A stretch of DNA of 64,000 bases, taken from the NCBI GenBank assembly GCA_026418015.1, contig JAOACE010000020.1, forward strand, positions 1-64,000. Direction: 5' to 3'. How positions within the stretch are numbered: position 1 is the first letter of the stretch; each line of letters begins with the position of its first letter. Made by a program: the position numbers and the translations under genes. The stretch comes from Leptospiraceae bacterium (GTDB lineage Bacteria; Spirochaetota; Leptospiria; Leptospirales; Leptonemataceae). Of the stretch, positions 10,942 to 15,791 are shown one piece after another. Below the pieces are notes generated by a model, which saw only the letters and a list, made by a program, of their open reading frames with translations, was not told the origin of the DNA and searched no databases.

Positions 10942-12174
10942 TTATTGCAACAAATCTATAGGATAAGGTAAAGATGCATCCTTTGGGATTCTATAAATAT
11001 ATTGATTTCTAAAATGGGGATCTTGCATTCTACATTCCTTAGAACGTTTTTTATATGGTTCAATCGTTATAAGCTTTTCCCACAAAGTTTTAATAGAGAA
11101 TTCAGGATATTTTCCTACTGTTAATGGGGTAAAATCACAAGGACATACATATCCTTGGCTTGATAGATAAAACTGAGTTGTTGCAGCAAAACAATACCCT
11201 CTACTACACTCTTTTTGGGATGTAAAAACAGATTGAGGTGTTATAATTGGATAATCTTTTTTCCTTCGATAGTAATGTGTTAAGTATAGTATTTTTTTTC
11301 TAGCTTCTAAATCAAGAAATGACGAAACAGAAGAATACATTCGCCCAGTAGGAATTGCATCAAAAAATGTAACTTCTTGAACGTTTAATTCTTTTGCAAA
11401 TGCCATCATGTTTTCTATAAAATAAGCTTCTACACGGTCTTTGGTTAAATAGCTAGAAATTGCAACAGGTATTTTTACTTGCAATGCGTTCTGAATTCCT
11501 TCAATTGCTTTATCAAATATATTTCGCTTTCTTAATTGATTATGTTCTTCTTTTTTGTAAGAATCCAAACTCACAAAAATTCCGTCCAAACCAGAAGCTT
11601 TTAATTTTTTACATTTTTCTTTGGTTAGAAATTCTCCATTTGTAAATAAAACCACATTTGCTTTGTTTTTATCTACCGACGAAATAATTTTATCTAAATC
11701 TTTGTTTAATAACGGTTCCCCACCTACTAAAACTACTGTTGTTACTCCAAGTTCTATGGATTCTTCTATTGCCGAAATAAATTGTTCTGTTGTTAATTCC
11801 TTCTCTTTCTGATTCATATGATAATTTGCACTACAATGTAAACAATTACATTGACATTTTTTTGTTAATCCTACTGTGAGTGTCGATGGTATTCTACACA
11901 TCTCGAATTTACGAAGCAATCGATAAAATATATATCTTTTACCAGCATTTGTTGTAATATCTGGTTGATATAAACTAAATCGTAATTGTCCAAATGTTCG
12001 AAAAAAATTCTTGTATTTCTTGGTTTGATTTATATAATTTTCTATATAAGATTTCGCTTTGTTTGGGAATTTTTCTTTAAACTCAATCCAATAATCTAAT
12101 AAATCTTGCGATGTATCGTATTTGTATTGAATCGTAAAATAATAATAATCAAGAAAATCCTGCTCTTTACTCAT
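10942..12174 (-). CDS. Radical SAM protein with SPASM-like C-terminus
   Basis: About 410 residues. The radical SAM cluster motif is CQCNCLHC in GLTKKCQCNCLHCSA (Cys-x3-Cys-x2-Cys), followed by the SAM-binding region VVLVGGEPLLN. The C-terminal part has a Cys set (ECSRGYCFAA, GYVCPCDFTP) typical of SPASM/twitch domains that bind extra Fe-S clusters. Proteins of this layout modify peptides or proteins, or act in cofactor maturation. No precursor peptide was recognised next to it, so the substrate is open. The start was placed at MSKEQDF (12174); an in-frame start at 12210 would add a hydrophobic stretch that looks non-coding. It is divergent from the AAA ATPase gene. Confidence 0.85.
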   Translation of the reverse strand: MSKEQDFLDYYYFTIQYKYDTSQDLLDYWIEFKEKFPNKAKSYIENYINQTKKYKNFFRTFGQLRFSLYQPDITTNAGKRYIFYRLLRKFEMCRIPSTLTVGLTKKCQCNCLHCSANYHMNQKEKELTTEQFISAIEESIELGVTTVVLVGGEPLLNKDLDKIISSVDKNKANVVLFTNGEFLTKEKCKKLKASGLDGIFVSLDSYKKEEHNQLRKRNIFDKAIEGIQNALQVKIPVAISSYLTKDRVEAYFIENMMAFAKELNVQEVTFFDAIPTGRMYSSVSSFLDLEARKKILYLTHYYRRKKDYPIITPQSVFTSQKECSRGYCFAATTQFYLSSQGYVCPCDFTPLTVGKYPEFSIKTLWEKLITIEPYKKRSKECRMQDPHFRNQYIYRIPKDASLPYPIDLLQ

Positions 12175-12275
12175 TAAAACATATTTAAAAGTATACAATA
12201 TTAGAGTCAAATAGAATTTATATTTTATAAAAAATGTTTGTTAAAATATTAAACATTACTTTTTTATTATTTAAT

Positions 12276-13709
12276 ATGAATCAAAACGAATTAAGCTTAA
12301 TTAAAACATTAAAAGACCTTAAAGAATTTGGGTATCAATATAGATCCATAAAAGAAGAAATGGCACAAAATTTAGCAAACAAACTCTATAATAATCAACC
12401 AGTATTCCCCGAAATTCATGGATACGAAGATACAGTTTTGCCACAATTATACCATGCGATACTTGCTGGTCATAATATAGTTTTATTAGGAGAAAAAGGA
12501 CAAGCAAAAACCAAAATTATGAGATCGTTAATTCATCTACTCGATGAATATTTTCCCGTAATAGATGGAACTCTTATTCCAGAAAGTCCTTTTCGTCCCA
12601 TAACAAAACAAGCAAAAAAGATATTACAAGAAAAACGAGAAAATACTCCAATTCGTTGGATACATCGCGAAGAACGTTATGGAGAAAAGTTGGCACCAGG
12701 TAGTAGAATTGCGGATATTATTGGAGATTTAGATCCCGCGAAAGTGATCGAAGGAAGTTCCTTAGGAAGTGAAGATGCACTCCATTATGGTCTTTTACCC
12801 AGAATGAATCATGGTATCTTTGCTATTAACGAATTACCAGACTTAGATTATCTAGTACAGGTTGCAATGTTTAATATTCTTGAAGAAGAAGATATTCAAA
12901 TTCGTGGTTTACCAGTTAGATTATCTTTGGATGTTTTTATTTGTTTTACAGCAAACCCATCAGAATATACGCGATCAGGAAAGATCATCACTCAATTAAA
13001 AGATAGAATTGGTGCAGAAATAAGAACACATTATCCTAAAACACGCGAAATTGGCTTAAAAATCACGAAACAAGAAATTCGCATTCCAGCGATAAAACCA
13101 GAAGTAATTGTGCCCAAATTCATTGAAGAAATCATCGAAGAGATTACCATCCAAGCAAGAAGACATCCTCTGGTGAACCAAAAGTCTGGTGTTTCTGCAA
13201 GATTATCCATTGCAAATTACGAAACCATCGTAGCATCTGCTAGAAGAAGAGCGTTACAACTAAAACAACCTGTTGCGTATGCACGAATGACGGATTTAGG
13301 AAATATTTTTAGTTCGAGTTTAGGAAAAATTGAACTTGATCCATATCGCGACGAAGCTGTCACAGAATATCAAGTTATTCTTAAATTGATCGATTTGGCT
13401 ATAAAAGAAATATTCGAAGAATATTTCCCCGAAAAAAAATATTCCCAAGAATTTGAAAATATTACAAAACAAGTATATCAAGCAAATGTAATAGAAATTT
13501 CCGATACAATGCCCACTTCCGAATATAAAAAAATCTTAAAAATTGTTCCGAGTTTATTCGATCTATTGAAAGATCAAAATTGGGACAAAAACGACGAATT
13601 ATTCGCATCGGGAATTGAATTTATACTTGAAGGTTTAACAACGAAAGAAAAAATAAGCAGACGGCGATTAGGAGAAATTGTTAGTTTTAAATCTGTGGAT
13701 TTGTATTAA
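12276..13709 (+). CDS. Magnesium-chelatase ChlI/MoxR-type AAA+ ATPase
   Basis: About 477 residues. Walker A is GEKGQAKT (a GxxGxxKT loop), preceded by HAILAGHNIVLLG. The Walker B region reads GIFAINELPDL, and an FTANPSEYTRSG sensor-1 region follows. This places it with the ChlI/MoxR group, which remodels protein complexes or inserts metal with partner proteins. No BchD/VWA partner and no chlorophyll genes are near, so a true magnesium chelatase role is not supported. The stop overlaps the ATG of the first ArsA-like gene by one base (TAATG), and that gene overlaps the second, so the three form one translationally coupled unit. The start at 12276 was preferred to 12234 because the added residues are hydrophobic and unlike the family. 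Confidence 0.8.
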   Translation: MNQNELSLIKTLKDLKEFGYQYRSIKEEMAQNLANKLYNNQPVFPEIHGYEDTVLPQLYHAILAGHNIVLLGEKGQAKTKIMRSLIHLLDEYFPVIDGTLIPESPFRPITKQAKKILQEKRENTPIRWIHREERYGEKLAPGSRIADIIGDLDPAKVIEGSSLGSEDALHYGLLPRMNHGIFAINELPDLDYLVQVAMFNILEEEDIQIRGLPVRLSLDVFICFTANPSEYTRSGKIITQLKDRIGAEIRTHYPKTREIGLKITKQEIRIPAIKPEVIVPKFIEEIIEEITIQARRHPLVNQKSGVSARLSIANYETIVASARRRALQLKQPVAYARMTDLGNIFSSSLGKIELDPYRDEAVTEYQVILKLIDLAIKEIFEEYFPEKKYSQEFENITKQVYQANVIEISDTMPTSEYKKILKIVPSLFDLLKDQNWDKNDELFASGIEFILEGLTTKEKISRRRLGEIVSFKSVDLY

Positions 13710-14638
13710 TGTTAAAGTTCAATCAGAAAGTAATTTTTGTATTAGGTAAAGGTGGCGTAGGTAGGACAACGATATCTGCCGCATTAGGTTATTATTTCGC
13801 TAAGCAAGGACTTAAAACCTTAGTAATTCAATGGGCAATTCGGGATTTTGTGTCCCCTATTTTTGATAAAGACCCAGTAGGTCATAAGCATAAAGAAATT
13901 TTACAAAATCTTTTTGTAATGAATTATGATCCTCAAATAACCTTACAAGAATATTTTGTAGAGCATTTGCACATGACTCTATTTTTTAAGTTTATCATCG
14001 AAAATCCACAAGTAAAGAAATTGATACAAGCTGCACCAGGTTTAGAAGAATTATTCTTCTTAGGAAGAATTTTTTGGTTAGTAGAATTAGCAAAAGAAGA
14101 ACGTGGATATGAATTCGATAAAATTATTGTAGATGCACCAGCTACTGGACATGGCTCTGCATTATTCGGTGTTATATCTACTATTTCGAACTTTAAATTA
14201 GAAGGCCCTTTGGTATCAGAAGCTATAAGGGTTGCTAAAATGTTAGATGATCACGAAAAAATTGGGACAGTAGTTGTCACCTTACCGGAAGAATTGCCTT
14301 ACGAAGAAACCATTGATCTGGTAGATCTTATCGAAAAAGAAATGAAAAGAAAACCCTTAGCAATTTTTTTAAACAAAAGTGTGTATTGGTATTTAAAAGA
14401 AAATGCCCATCACAATATAAACGATGATTATGCAAATCGTTTTTATCAATTCAAAAATGTTATAAGATCCTTAGATTTAGATCTCAGAAGAAAAATTTAT
14501 TACGAACATAGAACAAAAGAATTTTTTCATCAAACCATAAAAACGATCATCTTGCCAGAATTGATCCTAGAAAAACCAGAGATTACACCAGAACAAAAAA
14601 TCAAAAAACTTGTAGAACTATTAGAATCCTATGAATAA
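13709..14638 (+). CDS. ArsA/Get3-like ATPase, predicted inactive partner
   Basis: 309 residues of the ArsA/Get3 deviant-Walker-A fold. The P-loop reads GKGGVGRT: the signature lysine is kept, but the canonical P-loop lysine is Arg. Switch I, normally DPA, reads QWAIRDF, so the catalytic Asp is lost. Switch II is present as VDAPATGH. The neighbour downstream has the opposite P-loop defect. The likely reading is a heterodimer in which this subunit lends its signature lysine to the other subunit's ATP site. The family moves anions or tail-anchored membrane proteins; neither arsenic genes nor a client is visible here. It starts in the stop of the AAA ATPase gene and overlaps the next gene by 8 bases. 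Confidence 0.8.
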   Translation: MLKFNQKVIFVLGKGGVGRTTISAALGYYFAKQGLKTLVIQWAIRDFVSPIFDKDPVGHKHKEILQNLFVMNYDPQITLQEYFVEHLHMTLFFKFIIENPQVKKLIQAAPGLEELFFLGRIFWLVELAKEERGYEFDKIIVDAPATGHGSALFGVISTISNFKLEGPLVSEAIRVAKMLDDHEKIGTVVVTLPEELPYEETIDLVDLIEKEMKRKPLAIFLNKSVYWYLKENAHHNINDDYANRFYQFKNVIRSLDLDLRRKIYYEHRTKEFFHQTIKTIILPELILEKPEITPEQKIKKLVELLESYE

Positions 14639-15791
14639 AAAAACCAATTTACACATCTTTTTAGGAGCGGGAGGAGTTGGTAAAACCACCATTTCTGCTT
14701 CCTTCGCGATGTATTTAGCATCAAAAGGAAAAAAAACTGGCTTACTGAGTATAGACCCTGCAAAAAGGTTAAAATCTGCTCTTAATGCATCCCACATAGA
14801 CGAAGAAGGAAAAATCTTTTGGTCAAATACTAACAATGGGGGGTATCTACGTGCAGCAATATTAAATTTACCAGACAGCTTAAAACGTTGGATTATTGAC
14901 GAAGGTCTACCAGAAGAACATCAAAGACAACTATTTCAACATCCTTTGTATACAACGCTTGCAGAAAAGATTGCATCGGCAACAGAAACATTAGCTCCTA
15001 TAAGAATGGCAGAATGGTTAGAACAATACCCAGAAACAGAAGAACTGATTATCGATACTGCACCTGGTCTACATGCAGTGGATTTTATTACACGACCAGA
15101 AAAATTGATGGCATTTTTCGATAGCAAAATCCTTCAATGGATAAAATGGTTTGCTGGTGAAAAAAAATGGAAATGGGTCGATGGAAAAAAAGAAGTAATA
15201 CAAGATCAAAATATTTTTCAAAAAATCATAAGACAAAGTGCTAAAGGAATATTATCTGCACTTGGTAAAGCTGGTGGTGAAAACATATTGTTAACATTAG
15301 GAGAATTGATTTTATTAATGGATCAGGTTTTTTACAAGATGGTGGATAGATTAGAAGAATCTAGAAAATGGATAAGAGATACAAACACCAAAGTTTATTT
15401 TGTTTTTACATTACGCGATGATTCTGTTTCTGTTGCAATCGAACTTAAACAAATATTAGAAAAAAATAATATAAAAAATTTTATATTTTTATTAAATAAA
15501 AGCGTTCCTGATAGTTTTATAAATTCGAAGGAAGTAATGAATGTGAATAATGTCTTTTCGGAAATAAAACCTCATAGCTTAGAATACGAAGAATTATTAA
15601 ATAGATATATACAATCTTTTCCCATTCTAAAAAACAAGATTTTAACAAAACTCGAAAAATATTTTATACCTAAAAATAATATCATAGAGATTCCTATTGT
15701 TTCCTCGATAGAAAATTACGAAGAATTAAAAATTTCTGATTTAATTGAATTAGGATCCTATATTGAACATAAAAACAAAATAATGTATTAA
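14631..15791 (+). CDS. ArsA/Get3-like ATPase, predicted ATP-binding partner
   Basis: 386 residues. The P-loop reads GAGGVGKT: the canonical lysine is present, but the signature lysine near the start of the loop is Ala. Switch I is intact (SIDPAKRLKSAL) and switch II is IDTAPGLHAVD, as in ArsA/Get3. A Trp/Lys-rich insert follows (ILQWIKWFAGEKKWKW, about 165-180), which could be a client- or membrane-binding region. It overlaps the preceding ArsA-like gene by 8 bases and ends the three-gene unit with the ChlI/MoxR ATPase. In a heterodimer this subunit would hold the one working nucleotide site. Function beyond ATPase is unknown. Confidence 0.8.
   Translation: MNKKTNLHIFLGAGGVGKTTISASFAMYLASKGKKTGLLSIDPAKRLKSALNASHIDEEGKIFWSNTNNGGYLRAAILNLPDSLKRWIIDEGLPEEHQRQLFQHPLYTTLAEKIASATETLAPIRMAEWLEQYPETEELIIDTAPGLHAVDFITRPEKLMAFFDSKILQWIKWFAGEKKWKWVDGKKEVIQDQNIFQKIIRQSAKGILSALGKAGGENILLTLGELILLMDQVFYKMVDRLEESRKWIRDTNTKVYFVFTLRDDSVSVAIELKQILEKNNIKNFIFLLNKSVPDSFINSKEVMNVNNVFSEIKPHSLEYEELLNRYIQSFPILKNKILTKLEKYFIPKNNIIEIPIVSSIENYEELKISDLIELGSYIEHKNKIMY

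Follow-up and report, generated by a model that had tools for sequence, protein, structure and literature searches.

The dimers formed by ATPases of the Get3/ArsA type are symmetric or pseudo-symmetric, and the role of each ATP event in them is hard to separate. Within a window of 64,000 nucleotides (the whole stretch of DNA analyzed here, from a Leptospiraceae bacterium) two adjacent genes code for members of this group in which the deviant Walker A motif departs from the usual sequence in complementary ways. The question raised by this locus is how ATP could be used by such a pair. The original prediction was that the two proteins build one complete and one dead ATP site in an obligate asymmetric heterodimer, as opposed to being two paralogues. 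After comparing the pair with its relatives in spirochaetes and actinobacteria we consider that it probably burns ATP at just one of its two sites.

The locus and its genes

The coordinates of the relevant features are collected in Table 1. The two open reading frames, here called bagA and bagB for the reasons given below, share 8 bp (14631-14638), and the ATG of bagA overlaps the last base (1 bp) of an upstream gene coding for an AAA+ ATPase. Both products matched the Pfam model ArsA_ATPase (PF02374), protein A with 86.1 bits and protein B with 58.3 bits (cut-off 24.3). All the other matches to PF02374 in the same genome were at or below 36 bits, indicating that it carries no further clear ArsA or Get3.

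Table 1 Features of the bagAB-like locus (positions in the window)
Feature	Position	Strand	Basis or remarks
Upstream AAA+ ATPase gene, MoxR/Mg-chelatase-like	12234..13709	+	Context only
BagA-like subunit, Get3/ArsA family, 309 aa	13709..14638	+	ORF call, family profile, residue alignment
BagA deviant Walker A, GKGGVGRT	13745..13768	+	Lys14 codon 13748-13750; Arg19 codon 13763-13765 (AGG)
BagA Ala43, column of the catalytic switch I Asp	13835..13837	+	Residue alignment
BagB-like subunit, Get3/ArsA family, 386 aa	14631..15791	+	ORF call, family profile, residue alignment
BagB deviant Walker A, GAGGVGKT	14664..14687	+	Ala13 codon 14667-14669 (GCG); Lys18 codon 14682-14684
BagB Asp42, switch I catalytic Asp (IDPAKRL)	14754..14756	+	Residue alignment

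A deeply diverged branch of BagAB

The best NCBIfam model was BagA for protein A (95.9 bits) and BagB for protein B (89.2 bits), and neither reached the cut-offs (400 and 521 bits) of these equivalogs, NF053622 and NF053621, which describe BagA and BagB of Mycobacterium tuberculosis. To judge from these scores, the spirochaete pair is a clade related to the mycobacterial equivalog and not that equivalog itself. Searches of the PDB with the single sequences had entry 6bs3 as the best match, chain A for BagA and chain B for BagB, and family profiles gave the same assignment (6.4e-25 and 1.3e-30, respectively), the alignment of the BagB profile spanning both the ATPase and the helical regions. 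According to its title this entry contains the ADP-bound Get3-like A and B proteins of M. tuberculosis; they are Rv3679 and Rv3680 (BagA and BagB), crystallized as an A-B complex. The spirochaete and M. tuberculosis pairs share little sequence identity. The structure predicted for BagB, of middling confidence (pLDDT 64.5, pTM 0.66), also had 6bs3_B as its best PDB match (Foldseek 5.8e-11; Z 22.0 with an rmsd of 6.2 over 335 residues, the next Z being 19.3). The model of BagA, with a pLDDT of 35 obtained from a shallow alignment, was left out of all comparisons.

Trees were built from 52 and 31 sequences including the A and B proteins of spirochaetes and actinobacteria. The 15 A proteins formed a single clade (98/97, and 100/99 in the reduced set) and so did the 14 B proteins (100/99). 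Long-branch attraction was considered as the cause of these clades, but they persisted when the trees were rebuilt without the outliers and the other subunit. Together, the database matches, the fold match of BagB and the trees indicate that each protein stands nearer to BagA or BagB, respectively, than to any ArsA or Get3, that the A/B pair is old and that the locus represents a deeply diverged branch of BagAB; on this phylogenetic evidence, A and B are members of two ancient paralogous clades common to the M. tuberculosis pair. Heterodimer or paralogues, the choice offered by the original prediction, is then a false one, since both proteins are paralogues within the ArsA/Get3 superfamily and at the same time probably act as a heterodimer. 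For the latter we rely on the co-crystallized Rv3679-Rv3680 pair, from which we infer an A-B complex in the spirochaetes too, and the paper of Whitaker 2020 presents BagAB in its title as two interacting ATPases.

Distribution and genomic neighbourhood

Clear matches to BagA (at least 73 bits, the next one having 42) were found in 12 of 393 Spirochaetota genomes, all of them belonging to the window's own bacterial family, from which 22 genomes had been sampled. The bagB gene lies directly downstream of bagA in every one of these loci. One BagB (genome G208) runs past the end of its contig, so that 11 complete B proteins were available for 12 A proteins. Outside the spirochaetes our sample consisted of four actinobacterial pairs, three from a plasmid collection (Nocardia, Nonomuraea and Tsukamurella) and the M. 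tuberculosis PDB entry; the order bagA-bagB is also that of the three plasmid collection pairs. Among the genomes searched none carried BagA without BagB or the reverse. Furthermore, the A tree and the B tree were largely alike in shape, as expected under co-inheritance. No relatives of BagB were found in the viral contigs scanned.

In most loci an AAA+ gene abuts bagA or sits one gene upstream. This ATPase has an unusual Walker A motif, GEKGQAKT, and its sequence identity within the order, genomes without bagAB included, is 64-91%. As a functional partner of the pair it is weakened by its presence in many relatives that do not carry bagAB and its absence from two that do, and given this uncoupled distribution it was not treated as such. 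A divergently oriented gene coding for a radical SAM/SPASM protein (10942-12210) is located beside the AAA+ gene of the window, a position kept in two relatives (G001 and G003). Loci of one related genus (L091:6017-8368, L095:1264-3735 and the equivalents in L092 and L093) encode a protein of approximately 780-820 amino acids just 5' of bagA, with an isochorismatase-like start, a TCAD9/APH kinase-like middle and a dual-specificity phosphatase end. The surroundings of bagAB in Tsukamurella (L085:3414-5551), where the genes downstream code for a WhiB regulator and a transglycosylase, are unlike those in the spirochaetes, and the neighbours of the M. tuberculosis genes also differ from them.

Catalytic residues are unevenly split between the two subunits

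For the P-loop Lys, the signature Lys acting in trans and the switch I Asp we take the roles described for Get3 (PMC10248533). The residues that the original prediction had read in the two proteins were borne out by the ORFs and the alignment. BagA keeps the signature Lys (Lys14) and the switch II Asp (Asp142), has Arg19 in the place of the P-loop Lys and has lost the switch I Asp, the segment reading TLVIQWAIRD with Ala43 in the corresponding column. BagB has the signature Lys replaced by Ala13 and retains the P-loop Lys18, an intact switch I reading SIDPAKRL with Asp42, and Asp142 in switch II. As far as the alignment tells, the catalytic residues are thus unevenly split between BagA and BagB. 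A hydrophobic helical region follows switch II in BagB. Over the 100 residues past switch II, the fraction of large hydrophobic residues in the spirochaete BagB is 0.42, compared to 0.31-0.36 in other ArsA/Get3 proteins, which hints at a Get3-like client groove contributed mainly by B. A zinc CxxC motif was not found in the compared region of any BagA or BagB.

These deviations are uniform across the family and hence not due to chance. All 12 spirochaete A proteins have the signature Lys, the P-loop Arg and Ala or Ser at the switch I position, and all 11 complete B proteins combine a signature-position Ala with the P-loop Lys. The genuine ArsA/Get3 P-loops from 30 other Spirochaetota loci had both lysines in all cases (GKGG[V/L]GK[S/T]). 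The alignment of pairs indicates, however, that the two defects do not always occur together and are not a matched set of common origin. In actinobacteria the signature Lys of B is also replaced, by Ala or Ser in Nocardia, Nonomuraea and Tsukamurella and by Ala in M. tuberculosis, but the A proteins of the four pairs read GKGGTGK[S/T], with the P-loop Lys present and Glu at switch I. Among the sampled members, B is without the signature Lys family-wide, while the changes of Lys to Arg and of Asp to Ala or Ser in A are found only in the spirochaetes, and this places the spirochaete A site farther from Get3 than the A site of the related pairs. The original prediction had named as contrary evidence homologous pairs with normal motifs in both partners; the nearest ones are normal in the P-loop lysines of A and not in B. 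Doubly normal P-loop pairs do exist in two spirochaetes, but they are not BagAB. They are adjacent single-domain ArsA/Get3 genes, found in G339 (L098, G339:C1:1345565-1347660) and G184 (L102, G184:C110:33037-35082). One partner of the G184 pair has Asn for the switch I Asp, and this could be a further asymmetric pair.

The Arg in the P-loop of BagA does not appear to be drifting. Across the 12 genomes all six Arg codons are used at position 19 (AGG, AGA, CGC, CGT, CGG and CGA), and constancy through so many codons indicates that the residue is maintained by purifying selection. Of the 12 BagA columns made up almost entirely of Lys or Arg, 8 contain both residues, but column 19 is unmixed. The remainder of the motif (Gly13-Lys14-Gly15-Gly16-Val17-Gly18 and Thr/Ser20) and switch II (D-x-P-A-T-G-H) are conserved, and Asp46, three positions past Ala43, is invariant in the 12 genomes. 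From this pattern of substitution, the extra loss in the A subunit of the spirochaete clade looks selected.

Comparison with known systems

The M. tuberculosis BagA-BagB proteins (PDB 6bs3, 6bs4 and 6bs5) are the closest solved structures and share with the spirochaete pair the two clades, the gene order, the signature Lys in A, its replacement by Ala in B and the B switch I sequence DPAKRL. They differ in BagA, which in M. tuberculosis has GKGGTGKS, including the P-loop Lys, and Glu at switch I, against the Arg and Ala or Ser of the spirochaetes; a P-loop Lys and an acidic residue at switch I, which all the sampled actinobacterial BagA proteins have, are not known to define the family. Get3/TRC40 of eukaryotes and archaea has the same superfamily fold, deviant Walker A and helical client region past switch II, but it is a single self-pairing subunit containing both lysines of GKGGVGK[ST], the switch I Asp and usually the zinc CxxC, whereas in BagAB the motifs are split between two genes and the CxxC is missing. 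ArsA, the arsenite pump ATPase, also makes composite sites from two ATPase halves. These are usually fused and both have GKGGVGKT and DPA, in contrast to the separate and complementarily degenerate BagAB genes; in the relative G001, a two-domain ArsA is present as a separate, intact protein. Finally, the change of the P-loop Lys to Arg is known from NosGet3d and some other cyanobacterial Get3d proteins (PMC10248533). NosGet3d differs in being a homodimer with the trans Lys in place, Glu as the acidic residue of switch I and an alpha-crystallin domain, and it is an active ATPase, with a kcat of 0.28 per min versus 1.10 for AtGet3d (PMC10248533).

How the pair may use ATP

We think it probable that the two proteins form an asymmetric heterodimer of the BagA-BagB type, with the hydrolytic site at B and an A site that binds nucleotide and hydrolyses it poorly or not at all. 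Both the heterodimer and its activity are inferred here from the sequences and their relatives. ATP binding would bring BagA and BagB to close face to face. The ATP on BagB would be held by Lys18, Asp42 and Asp142 and would receive Lys14 of BagA in trans, making up the single competent site. The ATP on BagA would find no trans Lys (Ala13 of BagB), no water-positioning Asp (Ala43) and Arg19 instead of the P-loop Lys, so that hydrolysis there should be slow or nil. As Arg19 and the rest of the A P-loop are strictly conserved, this site has most likely kept the ability to bind nucleotide or phosphate, in what would be a structural or regulatory role; holding of nucleotide with poor or no hydrolysis is the option that we favour. 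One cycle at B would then open and close a hydrophobic helical client groove, largely derived from BagB, as in Get3.

A fully dead A site, without bound nucleotide and with BagA as a scaffold lending Lys14 to BagB, would agree with the three independent losses affecting it (P-loop Lys, switch I Asp and the trans Lys from B) and with the variation between Ala and Ser at switch I. We consider it unlikely, since an abandoned site is expected to decay and the P-loop and switch II of BagA are conserved, and the lending of Lys14 by itself does not explain why Arg19 is invariant in 12 genomes despite the use of every Arg codon. The retention of Arg19 together with the activity of NosGet3d argues against a site that is simply dead, and this word in the original prediction was too strong, although the complementarity it described is sound. 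The cyanobacterial enzyme also bears on the opposite possibility, that both sites hydrolyse, with Arg19 taking over from the P-loop Lys and another residue (e.g. the invariant Asp46) from the switch I Asp. NosGet3d remains an ATPase with the Lys-to-Arg change and Glu at switch I (PMC10248533), indicating that the BagA site may not be silent. However, its trans Lys is retained and its switch I residue is acidic, while BagB provides Ala and not Lys in trans in every spirochaete pair, and we regard hydrolysis at both sites as quite unlikely.

That BagA and BagB are independent paralogues, each one homodimeric and sharing only the operon, seems very improbable to us. Adjacent ArsA/Get3 genes with both P-loops normal do occur in other spirochaetes (G339 and G184), but a homodimer of BagB would lack the signature Lys at both of its sites, and one of BagA would have neither the P-loop Lys nor the switch I Asp. 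Moreover, the M. tuberculosis orthologues crystallized together and neither gene was found alone in any genome searched. An asymmetric heterodimer with hydrolysis at B and nucleotide holding at A thus remains our preferred reading.

Implications for the BagAB family

BagAB is an already known type of complex, and what the spirochaetes appear to add, among the pairs sampled, is a further, clade-specific loss in the A subunit: by its residues, the A half in this group has lost more of the ATP-splitting machinery than its known relatives. The dismantling of the A site is graded, with no trans Lys and a Glu at switch I in the actinobacteria and, additionally, Arg in the P-loop and the loss of any acidic residue at the switch I position in the spirochaetes. 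It is possible, with a chance that we put at somewhat less than even, that evolution has fixed the spirochaete BagAB as a one-site machine, in which B hydrolyses and A is a maintained, Arg-containing nucleotide sensor that does not. If true, the one-site BagAB of spirochaetes would amount to a Get3 cycle that nature has made permanently asymmetric. The graded loss of the A site gives direct access to the separate contributions of nucleotide sensing and hydrolysis in a chaperone-like ATPase.
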